NCBI RefSeq assembly: GCF_004028155.1
Contig: NZ_SBII01000002.1
Span: forward strand, 186,001-250,000
Origin: Flavobacterium cerinum
GTDB taxonomy: Bacteria; Bacteroidota; Bacteroidia; Flavobacteriales; Flavobacteriaceae
Length of the DNA stretch: 64,000 bases
Direction: 5' to 3'
Position numbers and translations under genes: made by a program. Shown piece by piece: positions 5,819 to 13,481 of this stretch. Positions within the stretch are counted from its first letter, which is position 1, and every line of letters begins with the position of its first letter. The notes under the pieces are model-generated. The model had not been told where the DNA came from, did no database searches, and worked only from the letters and a program-made list of their open reading frames with translations.

Positions 5819-8644
5819 TTATTTCTTTTTGTCTTTAGCCGGAGCCGGAGATGGTCCGTTTTTGAAACCGCTGGAGCTGAATTTTCTTGTTTCCACACGT
5901 TTTTCCTTAATGTTTAAAGTGAATTTTACTTCTTTAATATCATTAGGTTCGGCGTTGATAACTTGATTGTTATCTTCTATTTCAACATATTCAGAGATAC
6001 CGGCTTTTTCAAGAGTAACAGTATATGATCCTTTAGGTACATACAATACAAAGTTTCCGTTTTCATCAGTTTTAGTTGTAAAAACATTACCACTGTCGTC
6101 GATTGCAATTATTGGGAGTCCTCCTTTTTTTCTGGTTATGTCGAAACTTTTTTCAGTAAAAATATACGATAGAGATCCTTTAATAGTGGCTGTTTTGTTC
6201 AGGCCAATGGCAATTTTGGTGTCGGCATTTATAACCACTGTTACGGCGTTAGAATACCATTCATTGGTGTTAACAGGTTTTATTGAATAGGTTCCCAGTG
6301 GAAGTGATTTGTATTTTAAAATTCCTTTGTTGTCTGTTCTAAATGCTTTTCCATCAATAATTACAACTTGGTTAGCAGCAGCCAAACTTTTGGATGTCAT
6401 TTTGTCTTTACTTCCTGTTTCATAATACACATAAACTTCAAGCTCGCTTCTTGTCCTGTCAATCTTTATCGGATTAAAACGTTTTGTAAGTCCTACCTGA
6501 ATCGTGTTTAAAGAATTTACACTTGTTGAAAAATCGCTGTAGTAATTGTAGGCGAAAAGGGTAAAATCCTGTGAAACATCATATTCTACACGACCGTTAA
6601 ACTGTAACGATTCACTAATAAGACTGTTTTTAGAATATACCATTCCTACACTCACGTTAAGCTTATCGTTAAAAAATTTTTGTTGTAAAGTAGGTGAGAT
6701 CGTAAGGTTAGTGTATTTTTCTTTTACGCCAAATTGTGAGTTGGCAATAATCTCTCCCAGGTAGAAATTATTGTATTGATAAAAAGCTAAAAGATTAAAC
6801 ATTTTCCAACTGTAGATAAAATTCGTCTTAAAGTGAAATTCTTTCTTTTCTATTGTATTGGTTGTAAAAAGGCCACCTTCAAAAGATAAGGATACATTCT
6901 GTCTTGTGGGAGTGTTGTAATAGGTTAATCCTAAAGACATCCGGGCAGCCTTCATGGTATATTCTTCCGGAGAAATAGTTCCAATAAACTGTTCCTTGCG
7001 ATTTTCGGTATAATAATATGGGGATAAAGACACTATTACCGATGAAAAACGTCTTGATACTCCAATATCATAACGTGCTGTAGAAAAATGGGTTGAGGTA
7101 AATTGATTGGCGAACGATTCTGGTTTGGCAGAGAGATAATTGTATACTCCCCAAAAATTGAATTTACCAACAGGAAGGTTAATACGTTCGTTAAGGTTTA
7201 CCACACCTTTTCTCATTCCTGAAAAATAACCGGAGCTAAGGTAATTGGAACTGCTGTAAAATAAACTTTTTACCTTACCGTTAAACTGAACTTCTCCTGC
7301 ACCACCAGCTTTGTTTACCGATTCAATATCAGAAGTAAGATTACTTACTGCACCTCCGGCTCTAAGATTAAAATTTTCAGATGTGTATAATGAAAAGCGT
7401 GATGACGCCAGATAATTTTTTGTACCATAATACGTATCACTATCATAAATAATCGTGTTTTCATAACCATTTTTCTGCATCCATCCACCATTATGCGTGA
7501 ACATTCCCCATGCCGATTTTCCGAAGGATAAGTTTGAATTGTCGATCAGGTTGAAAGTTTTATCGATAGCACCGGCTTCAATGGTGTTTTTCTCGTTTGG
7601 TTTGTAAAAACCTTCGGCACCTCTACCAATAAGGTTAAGCTCGAAAAACTTTGATATGTTACCTATGGTAGCCCCAAAGTTTTTTTCTTTATAGCCAAGC
7701 CATGTGTTTCTAAGGAAAACCTGATTTGAGTTTTCCCACCAGTTCATATCTATATTGGCCTGAAGTACACCTTCATTGATTTCTGCCTCGGCATTAGCAT
7801 ATAAAAAGTAAGCATTTGTATTATCGCTGTTGTGCTGCATGCTTGCTGTAACCTGATTGGTTTGGTTAAAAGCCAGATTGTAATCGGGGTTGTAGGGAGC
7901 TGCATATTTTCTGTCCTGACGTATGGAGCTAGCTCTTACAGTACCATTATTAATAATATCGCCATTCTTATACAATGCGGTAATATTAATGGTGAAATCT
8001 TCTTGTTTTAGTATGTTTTTGTTGACTACTTTTTTTAATACAACAATAGTGTCTGTAAATGCCCTAATGCTGATATCGGTGTTTTCAATTGCATTTCGGG
8101 TTATAAAATCGGGGTAGCGGGCTAAAACGGTAATTTTTTGAGCAGTATTTCCTTCGTTAGAAATACGTATAGGAATGGAGAGGCTGTCGCCGGCTCTTTC
8201 GTAGATCAGGTTTGTTTCGAGCAGCATTACTTTTACCAGTTTTCTTTCGCGTATAAGAACGGGAAGGAAAACACTCTTAGTTTCCTGTGTGCCGTTAAGT
8301 GAAAATACACCTTCTATGGTACTTTTGTTACCAGCTTTTGCTGTGGCAGCAACAATAGCTTTTATCGGAATAAAAATGCTGTCCCTGGAAGGTAATGTTA
8401 TGGTTTTAGATTTTCGTTGAGAAAGGTAAAGGTCTTCGTGGCTGCTGTGCGCATCAAAAGTTCCTTCTATAGTGTGGCTGGTAGTATTTACTATTCTAAC
8501 ATAAGCATCTACAATGCCTGTGCTGTTTGTCTCGATTTTTTTGCTGGTAAATTCTATACTAAAGCTGTTATTTTGTGACCATGCAGTAAAGCCTGATACA
8601 AAAACAGCAAAGAATAGTAGTATTTTATAGCATTTAGCCGACAT
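5819..8644 (-). CDS. Usher-like outer-membrane beta-barrel protein
   Basis: This 941-residue protein has a signal peptide of about 24 residues (ending AWSQ). Residues 25-245 look like periplasmic Ig-like beta domains, including a NEW3-like stretch (DSLSIPIRISNEGNTAQKIT). Residues 255-722 are rich in alternating aromatic and hydrophobic strands and close with a barrel-like end (IQVGLTKRF). Residues 735-911 hold two carboxypeptidase-regulatory-like modules (TDNKGILKYKSLPLGTYSI and TDENGNFVLYVPKGSYTV). N-terminal domain, barrel, then two C-terminal beta domains is the order found in fimbrial ushers, though the length exceeds FimD/PapC and I cannot identify the internal plug. The C-terminus is a short proline/lysine tail. 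It is the last gene of the pilus-like operon, 12 bases after the adhesin-like gene. Family membership is inferred from architecture and context. Confidence 0.6.
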   Translation of the reverse strand: MSAKCYKILLFFAVFVSGFTAWSQNNSFSIEFTSKKIETNSTGIVDAYVRIVNTTSHTIEGTFDAHSSHEDLYLSQRKSKTITLPSRDSIFIPIKAIVAATAKAGNKSTIEGVFSLNGTQETKSVFLPVLIRERKLVKVMLLETNLIYERAGDSLSIPIRISNEGNTAQKITVLARYPDFITRNAIENTDISIRAFTDTIVVLKKVVNKNILKQEDFTINITALYKNGDIINNGTVRASSIRQDRKYAAPYNPDYNLAFNQTNQVTASMQHNSDNTNAYFLYANAEAEINEGVLQANIDMNWWENSNQVFLRNTWLGYKEKNFGATIGNISKFFELNLIGRGAEGFYKPNEKNTIEAGAIDKTFNLIDNSNLSFGKSAWGMFTHNGGWMQKNGYENTIIYDSDTYYGTKNYLASSRFSLYTSENFNLRAGGAVSNLTSDIESVNKAGGAGEVQFNGKVKSLFYSSSNYLSSGYFSGMRKGVVNLNERINLPVGKFNFWGVYNYLSAKPESFANQFTSTHFSTARYDIGVSRRFSSVIVSLSPYYYTENRKEQFIGTISPEEYTMKAARMSLGLTYYNTPTRQNVSLSFEGGLFTTNTIEKKEFHFKTNFIYSWKMFNLLAFYQYNNFYLGEIIANSQFGVKEKYTNLTISPTLQQKFFNDKLNVSVGMVYSKNSLISESLQFNGRVEYDVSQDFTLFAYNYYSDFSTSVNSLNTIQVGLTKRFNPIKIDRTRSELEVYVYYETGSKDKMTSKSLAAANQVVIIDGKAFRTDNKGILKYKSLPLGTYSIKPVNTNEWYSNAVTVVINADTKIAIGLNKTATIKGSLSYIFTEKSFDITRKKGGLPIIAIDDSGNVFTTKTDENGNFVLYVPKGSYTVTLEKAGISEYVEIEDNNQVINAEPNDIKEVKFTLNIKEKRVETRKFSSSGFKNGPSPAPAKDKKK

Positions 8645-8656
8645 TTATCGAGGAAG

Positions 8657-9676
8657 TTAATTAGGCATTATTACAAAATACACACGGGTACTATAGGTTC
8701 CCGGTGATACATTTAATCCCGGGCTATTTGCAGGAATGAAGAATTTTATATTATATGTGATATCCTGAGCAGTATTACTTGATCGCATAGCTACGGGCTG
8801 GGTTGTTGTTGCCAGAGTTATTGGCGAGATAATTTGTAATCCCTGATAGGCCTGATTCGTGCTTAACTGTAATTTTAAATTAGAAAGCGGTATGGTTTGT
8901 GAGGAAGATGACGAAATGAAATCGCCTGAAGCTTCTACTGCTAATTGAGTATTGTAAGTGTTCACTCTTAAAGCATTAGCAATTGTAACCGATTTTTCTG
9001 AGGCATAATCTGCAGGACTGCTGTAATTCAGGTTAAACTGTTGGGCGCCATTTTGTAGAATAACACTTTGTCCGCCATAATTCCCGCCAAAAGAAAGCTG
9101 AAACCTTGCGTCACCCAGAGGTGATGTGTAAATTCCGATTAGCTGCTCTGTACCTCCCGATATTTTATAAAGTTTGAATTCATAGGATGAATTATACATT
9201 CCGTTTGGGGTTACCAGTAAATGATTGCCACCCTGAACAGTTAAGTTATAACGAAAAACCCTGTTTACAGAACCGTTTAAATTAACATTGCTATGGATAA
9301 GAGTAACTTCGTTGTATTTGCTAAGTTGTATTGCCTGGGTTGGGACATTTACCAGAATGCTATTTGCAGAACCGCCATTTTCCTGACTGTTAAATTTCAG
9401 AAAACTGTATTGCGCACCTACAGTATATGAACCGTTAACTTCATTAGTGTAATCCTGTGTTAGTCGTGCAGTAAGCTTCCATTCGTTTACATTCATATTA
9501 GTGCCATAATACTGTATGGGAATTGAGATCTGGTTATTGAGTGTTTTTCCCGATACCATTTCTGGATAGGTATTAAATGTTGGCTGGCCACCATTATATG
9601 CACCCAGCGTATATTGAGCATTCGCTGCATATAGGGTAAACAGGAAAAAACATAAAATGGTTGTTATTTTTTTCAT
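8657..9676 (-). CDS. Two-domain adhesin-like pilus subunit
   Basis: This 339-residue protein has a clear signal peptide (residues 1-21, ending ANAQ). The C-terminal half (about 212-339) follows the same strand pattern as the three small subunits encoded upstream, including an IP-containing strand and the ending SPGTYSTRVYFVIMP. The N-terminal half (about 22-205) is a separate beta-rich domain with no family I recognise. Two-domain subunits with an N-terminal binding domain and a C-terminal pilin domain are typical tip adhesins of chaperone-usher pili such as FimH, so I infer a tip role. Its start overlaps the chaperone stop by four bases (ATGA), showing translational coupling with the chaperone. 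The ligand is unknown. Confidence 0.6.
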   Translation of the reverse strand: MKKITTILCFFLFTLYAANAQYTLGAYNGGQPTFNTYPEMVSGKTLNNQISIPIQYYGTNMNVNEWKLTARLTQDYTNEVNGSYTVGAQYSFLKFNSQENGGSANSILVNVPTQAIQLSKYNEVTLIHSNVNLNGSVNRVFRYNLTVQGGNHLLVTPNGMYNSSYEFKLYKISGGTEQLIGIYTSPLGDARFQLSFGGNYGGQSVILQNGAQQFNLNYSSPADYASEKSVTIANALRVNTYNTQLAVEASGDFISSSSSQTIPLSNLKLQLSTNQAYQGLQIISPITLATTTQPVAMRSSNTAQDITYNIKFFIPANSPGLNVSPGTYSTRVYFVIMPN

Positions 9677-10470
9677 AGACTAAATTCTAGTTCTGCAATT
9701 TTTATAACATCGTTTTCACCATAGGTCATAATGGCCGAAACAGTATAATTACCTTTAGCAAGATCAGCAGGTAATTGTTGTTTTAATACTCTAATATCTT
9801 TGGGAAGTGTGTAGAATTCTGATTCTTTTAGTGTACTTTTTTTACCGGTACTGTTGTTAAATAGTTCCCATTTTACTTTCCCATCGGCCCATAAATTGCC
9901 TTGGTTCTCTATTTTTAATTCAATGACCTTGTTTTTGTTTTCGTCGCTATAGCTTGTGAAATCTGTAAAGTCAAGAAGAACTTTATTTTCTTTTATAAAG
10001 GTGTGGTATATTTTTACACCCATTCTTACGGTTACCTGTATAGCAGCACCGTTTTGGTCTTTAGAAGTTCCCGGGTTAAGCTGGGTAAAGAAGATCATAC
10101 CTGTATGAACTGGTATTGAAGTATTGGCATTTGCCGGAACTTTAAAAAGTACTTCTATTTGTTTGGTTTCTCCCGGTTTAACAACAAAGTAGGAAGAAGG
10201 TAATATTTGTATCCAGTCGCTGCATGATGTCGGAAGTGTATTTGCTTCAACAATTTTATTATTACCTGATGGCTCATATTCCCAATCGCTAAATGAAACA
10301 CCTACTTCAAGCTCTTTCTCTGTAGGGTTTGTTAAGCTAACATACTGGGAACCGTTTGCTCCTGCATTTAATTTGTAATATAAACGTCCTGGTGATACAG
10401 ATATACCTGCCTGAGCCTGTACTTGGTTTACCATGAATAATCCAACCAGAGCCAATAGAAAATTTTTCAT
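9673..10470 (-). CDS. PapD-like periplasmic pilus chaperone
   Basis: This 265-residue protein has a signal peptide (1-20, ending QVQAQ) and two Ig-like domains, the size and plan of fimbrial chaperones. The N-terminal domain starts with ISVSPGRLYY and continues with the family-like segments YVSLTNP, CSDWIQILP and VVKPGETKQIEV. The arginine at about 29 (SPGR) and the lysine at about 153 (GVKIYH) sit where PapD has Arg8 and Lys112, the cleft residues that anchor the subunit C-terminus. The C-terminal domain (160-265) is a second beta-sandwich. It is encoded between the small subunits and the adhesin-like/usher-like genes. The expected role is to bind and cap subunits in the periplasm before delivery to the usher. 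Confidence 0.75.
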   Translation of the reverse strand: MKNFLLALVGLFMVNQVQAQAGISVSPGRLYYKLNAGANGSQYVSLTNPTEKELEVGVSFSDWEYEPSGNNKIVEANTLPTSCSDWIQILPSSYFVVKPGETKQIEVLFKVPANANTSIPVHTGMIFFTQLNPGTSKDQNGAAIQVTVRMGVKIYHTFIKENKVLLDFTDFTSYSDENKNKVIELKIENQGNLWADGKVKWELFNNSTGKKSTLKESEFYTLPKDIRVLKQQLPADLAKGNYTVSAIMTYGENDVIKIAELEFSL

Positions 10471-10503
10471 TTTTGTATTGTTTAATATCAGTAAAGATAC
10501 CGT

Positions 10504-11064
10504 TTATTGAGGAATTAAAGTATACATAACCGTAGTGCTATATGTACCTGCTTCACGATTAAGGTAACTCGGTGACTTCGTTTCGGGGATTACATAATTA
10601 ACATGAAAGCCGCGACCCCATTCGCCTGACGGAGATGTTATTATTGTGGTTGGCAATGCAGAAAGCATAATTTGTGGCACTACCTGAAGACCTGCCGGTG
10701 GGGCAGTGTTTGAGTTGGTAAGATTTCCTGTAGCTGTTTTTACGGCAATTGTATTTACAGGCAAAGTAGTATTGTTCCCATTATAGGAAAAATATTGTGT
10801 GCTTGCTTTTACAGTTACCTGATAAGCAGTACTTGAACTCACCCTTATATGGTTAGATTGCTGACCTGAAGAATTTCCCAAAATAAAATGAGAAGGCTGG
10901 GTCATATTTATATTAACCGTAGGCTGAGAAACCTGTATGCTTTGTACCTGAGCTATAGTAACGTTTACCTGTGTTTGTGCAGAGCCTATGTTTTGTGCCA
11001 TAGCGGCTATAGGGCAAAGTAGTAACAACAGAAATAAATTACGTATGAATTTTGGGGGTGTCAA
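10504..11064 (-). CDS. Pilin-like subunit (third of three)
   Basis: This 186-residue protein has a signal peptide ending AAMAQ. The mature N-terminus carries an alternating hydrophobic stretch (TQVNVTIAQVQSIQV) that could act as a donor strand. The body has the shared pattern HIRVSSSTAYQVTVKAS, and the C-terminus is YLNREAGTYSTTVMYTLIP, nearly the same motif as in its two neighbours. There is no cysteine pair, so folding would not depend on a disulfide. The gene follows a hairpin after the preceding subunit gene and precedes the chaperone by 33 bases. It is probably a minor or linker subunit. The family has no name I can give with confidence. Confidence 0.6.
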   Translation of the reverse strand: MTPPKFIRNLFLLLLLCPIAAMAQNIGSAQTQVNVTIAQVQSIQVSQPTVNINMTQPSHFILGNSSGQQSNHIRVSSSTAYQVTVKASTQYFSYNGNNTTLPVNTIAVKTATGNLTNSNTAPPAGLQVVPQIMLSALPTTIITSPSGEWGRGFHVNYVIPETKSPSYLNREAGTYSTTVMYTLIPQ

Positions 11065-11141
11065 ATGTAATTATGTTTCTAATTGTGAAGTGAAAACCTT
11101 CTAGAAGACAATGTAAGTCTGAATATCGAATATATAAAACA

Positions 11142-11168
11142 GCACTAACCTATAAATAAGATTAGTGC
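11142..11168 (-). terminator. Hairpin after the second pilin-like gene (partial terminator?)
   Basis: Read on the minus strand, GCACTAATC and GGTTAGTGC form a nine-pair stem (one G-U) around a nine-base loop, followed by TGTTTTATAT. It lies 25 bases past the stop of the 11193-11738 subunit gene and before the remaining pilus genes. That position would let it attenuate transcription so that the upstream subunit is made in excess. Confidence 0.5.
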
Positions 11169-11192
11169 CCTTTTATTATTAGTTATCGTGAT

Positions 11193-11738
11193 TTAGTTTG
11201 CTACGATAGTATAAGTAAGCAATGTGCTGTAAACAGCAGCTGGTTTGTTTAAGTATACCGGAGCACTAACTGCAGGAATTGTGTATTGTACGTTAAATCC
11301 ACGAACATCACCTTTAGCTGAAGCAATAAGCTGAACTGGTGCAGTTGCACTAAGTGCTGGAGCATTTGCAGGGAAAGTTGCAACAGATCCTGGATCAACA
11401 CTACCGGCAGCACCAGAGAAGGTACCAGGTGTAGTTGAAACAACAACTGTATTTACAGGGATAATGTCGTTAGCAGGAGATGTTAACTGGCTAGATGCCT
11501 GAACTGATACTTTGTAACCGCCTGTAGCGCTAACTTTAAGGTGGTTAGGTAAAGAACCTGTTGTGTTACCTTGTGTAAAGTTTGCAGCAGTGTTCATTAA
11601 GATAGTAACTGTTGGGTTAGTTACCTCGATAGAATAGATGCTTGCAAGGTTTACATTAAGATTTGTAGTTTGTGCGAAAATAGAATTTGCAGATAATGCA
11701 ATGATAGCAAATGATGCTGCTTTAACGAAATTTTTCAT
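11193..11738 (-). CDS. Pilin-like subunit (second of three; candidate major subunit)
   Basis: This 181-residue protein has a signal peptide ending SIFAQ. It shares with its neighbours the N-terminal alternating stretch (NLNVNLASIYSIEV), the central HLKVSATGGYKVSVQAS segment, and the C-terminal YLNKPAAVYSTLLTYTI. It is rich in Ala, Ser, Thr and Val with few charges, as structural pilins often are. It has its own perfect -7 box upstream (11823-11830) and a hairpin directly downstream, so it is the best candidate for the abundant shaft subunit. This is inferred from gene arrangement; no expression is known. Confidence 0.6.
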   Translation of the reverse strand: MKNFVKAASFAIIALSANSIFAQTTNLNVNLASIYSIEVTNPTVTILMNTAANFTQGNTTGSLPNHLKVSATGGYKVSVQASSQLTSPANDIIPVNTVVVSTTPGTFSGAAGSVDPGSVATFPANAPALSATAPVQLIASAKGDVRGFNVQYTIPAVSAPVYLNKPAAVYSTLLTYTIVAN

Positions 11739-11822
11739 TAGATTTTGGGGAATTTAAGTTCTAAATATTTAGGGGGGCTAAACATTTTAGATTACTTTAT
11801 TATTAATAGTAATTTAACGGTG

Positions 11823-11830
11823 CAAAAGTA
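11823..11830 (-). promoter_or_regulatory. -7 promoter box (TACTTTTG) upstream of the second pilin-like gene
   Basis: On the minus strand TACTTTTG is an exact TAnnTTTG match, about 85 bases before the start codon at 11738. The same octamer is found before the first pilin-like gene. A TTTTTGAC lies upstream but at about 26 bases, longer than the usual 17-23 spacing. Confidence 0.5.
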
Positions 11831-11932
11831 TGCCCATCGCTAATAATGATCACAGTCAAAAACGGAATTTTTGATGTCATTTTGCGACAGGTGCACTGCT
11901 AATTATAATAGTAGTATCTATTATATAGCTTG

Positions 11933-12460
11933 TTATGGCATTAGTATGGTGTAGGTAACTAATGTAGAATAGGTTCCGGGAGGCTGGTTTAAGTATGCCT
12001 GCCCGCCTGATACCTTATAATTTATATTAAAAGAACGCTGTGCATCTGCTTGTGAAGATTGTACTAAAGTAGTTTCTCCAAGAGCTAAGGCTACAGGGTT
12101 TAAATTAATTATTCCTGTTGATGCTCCTCCTACACTTCCCTGAGTTGGTGTAACAGTAACTGTTCCAATGTCTATTGTAGAGGTCTCACCAGTTAAGTGT
12201 GTAGCTGCCGAAACTTTTATTTCATAGTTAGAGCTGCTCATTATCTTAATATGGTCTTGCTGTAAGGCCGACTTTCCATTTACATATTCTGAAGCGTTAG
12301 TTAATGCTATTGCAACATTATTTTGGGCTTCATTAATTGTTATGCTTTGAATACTTTTTAGTTCTACGCTCAAATTTGCGCTTGCAGTTCCCTGAGTATA
12401 ACCAGTGGTTATGCAAGTGTAAAAAATAAAACTGTATAATGCTGCATGTATCTTTTTCAT
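11933..12460 (-). CDS. Pilin-like subunit (first of three)
   Basis: This 175-residue protein starts at the ATG at 12460 (MKKIHAALYS), with a signal peptide ending TGYTQ. An upstream in-frame ATG at 12499 is rejected because it lies inside the -7 promoter box and would place a charged segment before the signal peptide. The mature protein begins with an alternating hydrophobic stretch (NLSVELKSIQSITI), has the shared HIKIMSSSNYEIKVSAA core and ends YLNQPPGTYSTLVTYTILMP. It is the first gene of the pilus-like set. A 194-base gap with a second promoter box separates it from the next subunit gene, so the two could be expressed separately. Confidence 0.6.
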   Translation of the reverse strand: MKKIHAALYSFIFYTCITTGYTQGTASANLSVELKSIQSITINEAQNNVAIALTNASEYVNGKSALQQDHIKIMSSSNYEIKVSAATHLTGETSTIDIGTVTVTPTQGSVGGASTGIINLNPVALALGETTLVQSSQADAQRSFNINYKVSGGQAYLNQPPGTYSTLVTYTILMP

Positions 12461-12496
12461 AACTCGGCTTTTAAGTGAAACATCTTTAGGCCACGA

Positions 12497-12504
12497 CAAA
12501 AGTA
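12497..12504 (-). promoter_or_regulatory. -7 promoter box (TACTTTTG) upstream of the first pilin-like gene
   Basis: This is an exact TAnnTTTG match on the minus strand, about 36 bases before the start codon at 12460. It is identical to the octamer preceding the second pilin-like gene. No clear -33 TTG is seen. Confidence 0.5.
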
Positions 12505-12574: not shown

Positions 12575-12610
12575 GTGTTTAAACACAGATTTTTATCTGT
12601 GTTTAAACAC
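12575..12610. promoter_or_regulatory. Twin palindrome, candidate operator
   Basis: The element is a perfect 16-bp inverted repeat around TTTT. Each arm also contains the perfect 12-bp palindrome GTGTTTAAACAC (12575-12586 and 12599-12610), with centres 24 bp apart. It overlaps the stop codon of the AraC-type gene and lies about 75-110 bases upstream of the first pilin -7 box. Neither strand has a T run after it, so a pair of protein-binding sites is more likely than a terminator. Confidence 0.5.
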
Positions 12611-13481
12611 TATATACCCTTTTTTCCTCAAATTGTGTCCTGTATTCTTTAGGTGACATCCCGGCTGCTTTGATAAAAAACCGGATAAAATTGCTGGGTT
12701 CCAGGAACATGAGTTCAAAAGCAATTTCTTTTATACTCATAGAACTGTATCGCAGCAAGCGTTTACTTTCGATTACAATTTGTTCTGTAATTATTTTTTT
12801 AGGCGACATGCCGTATATGTTATTGCATATTTCGTTTAAGCGTTTAACTGATATATTGAGCTTGTCGGCATATTCTTTTACCAGCTTCATATGTTTTAGG
12901 TTCTCTTTTACCAATTGCCTAAAATGACCCGCAATATCAACATCTGTTTTTTTAAACATTTCCATTGGACTGTAAGAACTGTCTAATAATTCTTTTTGAG
13001 AGAATAATAAAAGCCGCTCTACAGTATTGTGGGCAAATAAGTACATTAACTGATCAAAGGGCTGTCGGCATATGTGCAATAATGACTGATGATGCTGTTC
13101 AATGATCCTTTTTAAAGAATTATGTAACTTATATTTTAATGCCTGCTGTGAATTAAAAAATACACAGGATTCTAAAAATCGTCTGTCTATATCATTGCGA
13201 CAGTAAAAAGCTTCTTCAAAACAAACAAGCAGCACTTCAAAAGAAGAAGGTGTTGCTATGCTGAATACCTGATTTATACTAATGAATCCACATTCGAATT
13301 TATTTATATCTACTAAATTGTTGTCTAGCTTAAGTGTAAGCTCTCCTGATTTTACCCAAAACATTTGATAAAATGAGCTTCTGAATGATTTATTTAAGAA
13401 CGGACTTTCCTGGGATCTAATTAGGTGTGCGCTAAATCCGGTAGGGTATTGTTTTTTGTCAAGACTAAGAGTTTCGATCAT
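12603..13481 (-). CDS. AraC-family transcriptional regulator
   Basis: This 292-residue protein has an N-terminal beta-rich, cupin-like sensing region (about 20-100) and a C-terminal pair of helix-turn-helix motifs (about 190-285). It ends with the AraC signature around SIKEIAFELMFLEPSNFIRFFIKAAGMSPKEYR. It lies directly upstream of the pilus-like genes on the same strand, with a twin palindrome over its stop codon, so local control of that operon is a reasonable inference. No ligand can be predicted. Confidence 0.85.
   Translation of the reverse strand: MIETLSLDKKQYPTGFSAHLIRSQESPFLNKSFRSSFYQMFWVKSGELTLKLDNNLVDINKFECGFISINQVFSIATPSSFEVLLVCFEEAFYCRNDIDRRFLESCVFFNSQQALKYKLHNSLKRIIEQHHQSLLHICRQPFDQLMYLFAHNTVERLLLFSQKELLDSSYSPMEMFKKTDVDIAGHFRQLVKENLKHMKLVKEYADKLNISVKRLNEICNNIYGMSPKKIITEQIVIESKRLLRYSSMSIKEIAFELMFLEPSNFIRFFIKAAGMSPKEYRTQFEEKRVYSV

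Follow-up and report, generated by a model that had tools for sequence, protein, structure and literature searches.

Introduction

Chaperone-usher pili are the textbook fibres of Proteobacteria. Archaic Csu pili have a conventional plug-bearing usher, systems of the FGL type make capsule-like coats or short oligomers, and two-domain adhesins have a pilin domain that lacks its own donor strand. Bacteroidota use both type V (Fim/Mfa) pili and the type 9 secretion system (T9SS). Here we analyse an operon from this phylum that joins a PapD-family chaperone and pilin-like subunits to an unorthodox barrel protein. It lies in a stretch of 64,000 nucleotides from Flavobacterium cerinum (assembly GCF_004028155.1, contig NZ_SBII01000002.1, positions 186,001 to 250,000), the whole of which is called the window below. 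The genes occupy the minus strand of 5819-12460 and encode, in order of transcription, three pilin-like proteins (s1, s2 and s3), the chaperone, a two-domain tip protein and a 941-residue barrel protein. They probably form an operon for a donor-strand-assembled surface pilus that works like the chaperone-usher pathway.

A second point of reference are the filaments TLP-1a and TLP-1b, which were reportedly obtained from water of the Tsinghua Lotus Pond by cryo-electron microscopy in the CryoSeek work (said to have appeared in PNAS in 2024), and in which donor-strand exchange is said to reach protomer n+4. To our knowledge, neither the source organism nor the assembly genes of the TLP-1 filaments have been identified. 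A search of the literature by titles and abstract openings found no system like the present one described in Bacteroidota; subscription journals were mostly uncovered by it, and a description may exist.

Results

A conserved operon

The gene set and its order recur in 80 relatives as far as the contigs reach, and the operon is thus conserved and not a product of chance. These relatives are the best 80 of 134 found by scanning genome contigs with an alignment of six chaperones. The tip gene directly follows the chaperone gene in 80 of 80 and the barrel gene follows the tip gene in 79, the exception (L132) being a contig end; in two more loci (L102 and L125) the contig stops within the barrel frame. 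A pilin gene lies upstream of the chaperone gene in 78, and the remaining two (L118 and L133) have no sequence there. In one locus (L079), the barrel reading frame is split into 763 and 172 residues.

The operon was found in Flavobacterium, Mesonia, Arenibacter, Cellulophaga, Myroides, Paenimyroides, Chryseobacterium, Pedobacter, Arcticibacter, Sphingobacterium, Dysgonomonas, Proteiniphilum and Fermentimonas, which we take to represent three orders, the Flavobacteriales, Sphingobacteriales and Bacteroidales. A preliminary description of this DNA had proposed a survey of gene order in other Flavobacteriia, and the order proves to be conserved across the 80 relatives. Six Flavobacterium records, including F. 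frigoritolerans, F. oncorhynchi and F. hydatis, have a chaperone 88-90% identical to that of the window. With weak matches counted, 296 genomes of the order yielded 40 with a match to the single window chaperone sequence, and 296 genomes of the phylum yielded 28 in which a chaperone profile detects relatives, of several subtypes; genome G000 has one. A scan of viral contigs for relatives gave 43 pattern matches, none of which was confirmed.

Thinning by length and redundancy left 58 barrels, 46 chaperones, 49 tips and 89 pilins (74 of them aligned). Members of subtypes B and C lie outside these alignments and were used in early alignments, profile seeds and HHalign sets. Three further layouts were seen: pilins, chaperone, barrel and a protein of about 478 residues (B; L044-L046); pilin, chaperone, barrel and two small proteins (C; e.g. 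L047, L052-L054); and a locus with the chaperone on the strand opposite to the pilins and the barrel (D; L218, 5351-11640).

The chaperone

On profile evidence, the chaperone is a real, very divergent homologue of the PapD family. HHalign of the family profile against ten E. coli K-12 chaperones gave a probability of 95.4 and an expectation value (E) of 1.7e-8 over 224 columns, with E 0.086 for a reversed control. The family can also be approached through Pfam, where the link is weak: the window chaperone alone had no match of note, and 9 of 46 family chaperones match PapD_N at E <=1 (best 0.0099). Searches of the PDB with the single sequence and with the profile returned nothing useful.

The residues Arg29 and Lys153, which had been assigned to the PapD cleft from the window sequence, are conserved. 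In the 46 aligned chaperones, that of the window included, position 29 is Arg in 38 and Lys in 8, and position 153 is Lys in all. HHalign places the window Arg29 on the cleft Arg of FimC and Lys153 on its cleft Lys, which we take to be Arg8 and Lys112. The strand before Lys153 is hydrophobic at -9, -7, -5 and -1 in 46 of 46, and FimC has the same offsets; positions -8, -4 and -2 are never hydrophobic, -6 is so in 20% and -3 in 33%. This is the pattern of a donor strand, recognized here by sequence comparison together with the homology itself.

Pilins and tip protein

The three pilin-like proteins are mutually homologous (phmmer E 1.2e-16 to 4.4e-28 in a small set of open reading frames, ORFs) and have a common motif, YLN(Q/K/R)xx(G/A)xYST, near the C-terminus. 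They agree with the preliminary description, which had spoken of three small secreted proteins with a shared C-terminal motif and had placed all six ORFs on one strand; their secretion is judged from signal peptides, which were called by eye throughout the operon. In the 74 aligned pilins, the extension after the signal peptide is hydrophobic at positions 27 (100%), 29 (99%), 31 (100%) and 25 (65%) and mostly polar between, and Tyr176 near the C-terminus is kept in 73. For this alignment s1 was taken as 11936-12463, one codon longer upstream than in Table 1.

An AlphaFold2 model of s2 (predicted local distance difference test, pLDDT, 89.8) shows an immunoglobulin (Ig)-like sheet with its last strand, 174-180, at the C-terminus, and residues 22-34 are not in a strand. 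The pilins are therefore predicted to have an incomplete Ig fold that ends at strand F, and a free N-terminal donor strand. Complete Ig folds in the subunits had been named in advance as a finding that would speak against a pilus of this kind; the s2 model lacks the last Ig strand.

Structural comparison with VIA, which realigned the first 1000 chains from Foldseek and in which the absence of a family does not exclude it, put TLP-1a (Z 9.3) and TLP-1b (Z 9.0) on top for model residues 18-181. These filaments (PDB 9ikj and 9ikk) are the closest VIA match of the pilin fold with the N-terminal donor strand region included. They are followed mainly by chaperone-usher pilins (CfaE, CsuE, CsuA/B and FimA; Z 5.6-7), most of whose alignments begin at 29-36, without the extension, those of 7zl4_B, 3jwn_G and 6e14_G beginning at 20-21. 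Chaperone-usher pilins are also among the first rows of the Foldseek search. The CryoSeek paper is cited in the reference list of PMC12967142.

Sequence profiles lead to the same filaments. Among 177,635 PDB sequences, the best matches of the window-type pilin profile are TLP-2 and TLP-1 (E 0.056 and 0.14), as are those of a profile of the layout D pilins and their relatives (E 0.008 and 0.017). A 60-residue TLP fragment was searched against 2247 locus ORFs, of which 382 are pilin-profile ORFs with tips and repeated places counted, and its first 50 matches are all pilin-profile ORFs (best E 0.0022); in 296 genomes the fragment matched nothing at E 0.001 and four sequences at E 0.045 to 0.066. 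None of these profile or fragment E-values is strong alone. The similarity is remote, the TLP protomers having 236-237 residues compared with about 160 mature residues in the operon pilins. The product is probably a fibre of the TLP-1a/1b kind. A 255-residue ORF in L218 was considered as a relative of TLP-1 and rejected, having no PDB match of note. In a Chryseobacterium locus (L038:6871-7236), a 121-residue ORF without a Pfam family lies between an AraC gene and the pilin gene, and ORFs of similar size, with weak matches to the pilin profile, recur at this position in several loci.

In line with the earlier view of the tip protein as a two-domain subunit related to the small ones, HHalign matches its C-terminal half to the pilin profile (probability 99.6, E 5.9e-24). 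The match starts at profile column 43, i.e., after the extension, and in matching only beyond the donor strand the tip pilin domain resembles that of two-domain adhesins. Single-sequence scans of the tip against Pfam, NCBIfam and PHROGs named no family, and a PDB search with its profile gave nothing useful.

The barrel protein

The AlphaFold2 model of the barrel protein has a mean pLDDT of 85.8 and a predicted template modelling score (pTM) of 0.53, so that domain placement is uncertain. In agreement with the preliminary description, it shows a large barrel with two beta domains on its N-terminal side and two beta modules on its C-terminal side. According to DSSP, residues 264-722 of the model contain 25 long strands and a broken one (about 26, against 24 in a classical usher). 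The first N-terminal domain (within 28-246) aligns to a domain of complement C3 (VIA Z 13.7, root-mean-square deviation, rmsd, 1.8), and by inference from the model the N-terminal domains are Ig-like. There is no plug insertion in the model, where the longest stretch between consecutive long strands has 20 residues, nor was one seen by eye in 21 aligned barrels from subtypes A, B and C. The best Pfam matches of the protein are sub-threshold and C-terminal (CarboxypepD_reg, E 2.1e-6, and SpaA), and the best PDB match of the barrel profile, in a search that gave nothing useful, is a prealbumin-like stretch of NOMO2.

A Foldseek comparison of the model with the PDB finds ushers first, FimD or PapC filling ranks 1-12 at E 6.6e-14 to 7.8e-11. 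A fold library of viral proteins, which served as a negative control, contained no usher-like match of note. At the level of profiles, the full-length barrel family matches plug-bearing ushers of Bacteroidota (HHalign 97.6). We rejected this match as proof of usher descent, as cutting the profiles traced the signal to the C-terminal domains, which alone give 97.4 and E 1.4e-11; the full-length match of the usher in L223 likewise comes from these domains and not from the barrel. A pooled full-length profile of 78 barrels, with subtypes pooled, matches E. coli ushers with probability 88.9 and E 2.4e-6 (reversed control, E 0.01). The alignment shown lies in the barrel and sets GNIS...GRGAE of the window on GDGYT...FRGAQ of FimD, a stretch that presumably lies just before the usher plug, and it continues into the FimD plug stretch, where no counterpart is expected. 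Cut to the barrel, the same profile gives E 0.071. Taken together, the profile comparisons give a plausible hint of usher descent and leave membership in the usher family unproven.

Several results weigh against a chaperone-usher reading. First, in the chaperones, the cleft Lys is His in three aligned members of subtype B, and both cleft residues are lost in eight members of subtype C (the Arg being uncovered in one). Second, in the pilins, the non-pilins CEP192 (Z 6.8) and a plant hexosaminidase (Z 6.5) are level with chaperone-usher pilins in VIA; Foldseek of the s2 model gave no match at E 0.001 (best 6.5e-3, CfaB), and TLP is absent among the 50 matches listed; the pilin profile reaches an HHalign probability of 6.8 against E. 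coli pilins; and s1 alone has no PDB match. Third, the window barrel has no match at E <=1 to PF00577 or to the PapC N- and C-domain families. The barrel part alone gives HHalign E 0.24 with the plug-bearing intermediates, 0.042 with E. coli ushers and 0.027 with TonB receptors, and the full-length family matches E. coli ushers (probability 10.7) at the level of TonB receptors (8.5). In the viral library, unrelated multi-Ig proteins of phages reach Foldseek E 1.9e-11, and the separation provided by the usher E-values is therefore only moderate. In VIA, OprD-type porins are level with ushers (Z 13.6-16.2), and the best match is MtrB (Z 20.4, 416 residues, rmsd 5.1). The C-terminal domain type is common (CarboxypepD_reg, SdrD) and may have been recruited twice. 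Finally, the model offers no plug to seal the pore in the resting state.

As tested, the barrel fails two defining features of ushers. The label 'usher' in the preliminary description is not upheld: PF00577 is unmatched, similarity of the barrel part is insignificant in the profile comparison that had been proposed for the 941-residue protein, about 26 strands are counted in the model, and the predicted structure has neither a plug nor a recognizable usher N-domain, a result that the preliminary description itself had listed as telling against its view. One possibility, which we regard as open to real doubt, is that a genuine chaperone-usher chaperone and its pilins are accompanied by an unrelated large outer-membrane protein, MtrB- or porin-like, recruited as a fibre anchor or as an export pore that evolved independently. 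The barrel-only profiles, the strand number, the missing plug in the model and MtrB as the best structural match argue for it. MtrB has 26 strands and is the sheath of an electron conduit, without chaperone, pilins or C-terminal modules. Against an unrelated barrel speak the C-terminal domains, which match those of plug-bearing ushers, and, as a hint only, the pooled full-length profile. This explanation overlaps with that of a pilus assembled in chaperone-usher fashion, since an independent pore would keep the same mechanism.

Ushers and relatives in neighbouring lineages

In none of 247 Bacteroidota genomes did PF00577 score above the cut-off, and 1 of 14 controls rang (E. coli). Two sub-threshold hits led to another usher, here called i-type, with a plug by eye, in another class of Bacteroidota. 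In that class it matches in 69 of 117 genomes at E 0.001, short partial matches counted. In 30 of 30 distinct loci (32 records, two places occurring twice), the usher strand also carries a homologous chaperone gene, at distances from 4 bp of overlap to 64 bp before the usher. The i-type ushers match those of E. coli (HHalign 94.0, E 1.5e-7), also with the barrel part alone (92.5, E 4.9e-7, FimD columns 175-412). The i-type systems (e.g. L137 and L138) resemble that of the window in their homologous chaperones (HHalign 98.8, E 8.2e-17) and similar C-terminal domains; they differ in the PF00577-related barrel, the plug and the N-domain, which compares with that of the window at E 0.43. On this sequence comparison, the window-type N-terminus marks a lineage to which the i-type ushers do not belong.

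In two i-type loci (L137:6598-10412 and L138:312-5506), the usher is just under the PF00577 cut-off and accompanied by a PapD-like chaperone. Near the first of these lie a small protein with a weak DUF4402 match (E 0.00097) and a 620-residue protein with FliG-type domains (L137:4708-6570; FliG_M E 7.3e-13). No useful PDB match was obtained for one i-type pilin. Within the genus of the window, one genome encodes an i-type chaperone and an 847-residue usher-like ORF (L224:2426-6682), and both pathways thus occur in that genus.

Among plasmids, tblastn found one relative, on plasmid p_2 of Deinococcus sp. D7000 (L246:6963-12565). This locus encodes a pilin-like protein (by eye), a chaperone (profile E 3e-21), a small protein and a 1018-residue protein, all annotated as hypothetical. 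The 1018-residue protein matches the window family at its N-terminus (residues 81-186; the N-domain profile by itself gives E 1.6e-6), weakly via the C-terminal domains and not via the barrel; in Pfam it has an Ig-like stretch (132-221) and an SdrD_B stretch (828-899) and no Usher match.

Gene organization, regulation and surroundings

The features of the locus are listed in Table 1. An in-frame TTG lies upstream of s1 at 12499. For s3, the TTG start yields a signal peptide by eye that an ATG start at 11001 would remove. The chaperone and tip ORFs overlap by 4 bp, and 12 nucleotides separate tip and barrel. Scans of the window proteins with Pfam and NCBIfam gave no family for the chaperone or the pilins, and PHROGs, used for the tip, the chaperone and s2, gave no match.

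Table 1. Features of the probable pilus operon and its upstream gene in the window.
Feature	Position	Strand	Description
Pilin-like subunit s1	11933-12460	minus	175 residues; ATG start; signal peptide by eye; N-terminal extension; C-terminal YLNQPPGTYST
Pilin-like subunit s2	11193-11738	minus	181 residues; AlphaFold2 model
Pilin-like subunit s3	10504-11064	minus	186 residues; TTG start
PapD-like periplasmic chaperone	9673-10470	minus	265 residues; cleft residues Arg29 and Lys153; G1 donor strand 144-152
Two-domain tip subunit, putative adhesin	8657-9676	minus	339 residues; C-terminal half is a pilin domain
Usher-like outer-membrane barrel protein	5819-8644	minus	941 residues
Domains of the barrel protein			two N-terminal beta domains, residues 28-246; barrel, 264-722, without plug; two prealbumin-like C-terminal domains, 760-912
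Terminator-like hairpin, possible attenuator	11141-11169	minus	between s2 and s3
AraC-type regulator	12603-13481	minus	directly upstream of the operon

The hairpin of the window may act as an attenuator in favour of the first two pilin genes. Of 71 gaps between pilin and chaperone genes, 41 contain a stem of 9 bp or more with T's after it, compared with 0 to 3 in ten dinucleotide shuffles; the gaps scored were those longer than 30 nucleotides in the window and 80 loci (L055-L134). These 41 are not independent, the loci being related, and the hairpin sequences vary. The hairpins are candidates for a conserved attenuator, the likely effect of which would be more mRNA for pilins than for chaperone and barrel. 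Both loci checked for it, L036 and L038, likewise have an AraC-type gene upstream of their pilin genes.

On the plus strand, a long polysaccharide cluster (13773-59202) adjoins the pilus operon. Its content, judged by eye from the starts of the proteins, comprises sugar epimerases, UDP-sugar dehydrogenases, rml-type proteins, glycosyltransferases, NeuB/NeuC-like proteins and a flippase. To judge by ORF lengths alone, L036 seems to have kept the junction, in which a recR-like gene and sugar genes lie on opposite sides.

Discussion

The assembly steps can be pictured by analogy with the chaperone-usher pathway. In the periplasm, the chaperone would lend its G1 strand (I144, V146, V148 and V152) to each pilin, while Arg29 and Lys153 would hold the pilin C-terminus. 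The complexes would be delivered to the 941-residue barrel in the outer membrane, where the two Ig-like N-domains and the two C-terminal modules may receive and pass them, replacing the N-domain, plug and C-domains of an usher. The N-terminal strand of the next pilin would then displace that of the chaperone, and the fibre would extend out through the pore with the tip protein leading. Pilin mRNA is probably kept in excess by the hairpin among the pilin genes. Candidates for sealing the pore are the N-terminal domains or a helix at 629-638. The least supported step is the role of the barrel as an export pore related to ushers.

The same assembly line could also make a non-fibrous product, either a capsule-like coat or short surface oligomers, as FGL-type systems do; we consider this unlikely. 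The sequence holds no proof of a rod. However, the closest solved structures of the pilin by VIA are filaments, and at least one pilin gene together with a two-domain tip gene is the layout of a rod with an adhesin. It is highly improbable that the operon encodes an ordinary archaic chaperone-usher system in which usher and plug are merely hidden by divergence. The chaperone homology and the leading place of ushers in Foldseek would fit such a system, but no gap between strands of the barrel model exceeds 20 residues, which leaves no room for a plug, none was seen in the 21 aligned barrels, and the plug-bearing ushers that the phylum does have are clearly separate. A type V pilus or a set of T9SS-exported adhesins, the machineries in use in this phylum, can practically be dismissed, as the six proteins have no fimbrillin or Por_Secre_tail match at E <=1 (Pfam, and for fimbrillin also NCBIfam), carry ordinary signal peptides by eye, and are encoded alongside a PapD-like chaperone in 80 of 80 relatives, which were found by that chaperone.

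The preferred reading thus remains that of a pilus built by donor-strand assembly. The preliminary description had gone further and proposed a divergent, possibly undescribed chaperone-usher lineage. The PapD-type chaperone, the modelled pilins, the pilin domain of the tip and the literature search bear this out; the usher identity of the barrel does not stand. A bolder alternative, which we put forward tentatively and with considerable reservation, is a separate pathway of Bacteroidota that reaches the Deinococcota, combines a PapD-type chaperone with a plug-less, non-usher barrel of about 26 strands and Ig-like N-domains, and makes filaments of the TLP-1 type.

If the pilus reading is correct, the chaperone and pilin logic of chaperone-usher pili extends to a second major phylum, where it was overlooked by the standard Usher family model. 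Surveys based on PF00577 undercount such systems (0 of 247 genomes pass the cut-off, versus 28 of 296 with the chaperone profile). The pore seemingly dispenses with a plug that is held to be important for gating, and the family may offer a natural test of which parts of an usher are indispensable. The operon may also provide a genetic handle on the orphan environmental filament TLP-1.

In conclusion, the operon can be set beside three known assemblies. With the TLP-1 filaments it shares the pilin fold and, probably, the kind of fibre. Archaic Csu pili provide some of the better fold matches to the pilin (CsuA/B and CsuE, VIA Z 5.8-6.5), and yet no Csu chain is among the PDB matches of the pilin profile at E <=10. 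To the classical systems of FimC, FimD and FimA and of PapD and PapC, the likeness extends to the chaperone cleft and the register of the G1 strand, incomplete pilins (in the model), a two-domain tip, the gene order, and a large barrel with N- and C-terminal beta domains that is usher-like in place and size. The differences are that the operon pilins match classical pilins by fold only and that the barrel has no PF00577 match and no plug, with two Ig-like N-domains and about 26 strands. A defensible wording for the system is 'chaperone-usher-like, with an unorthodox barrel'.

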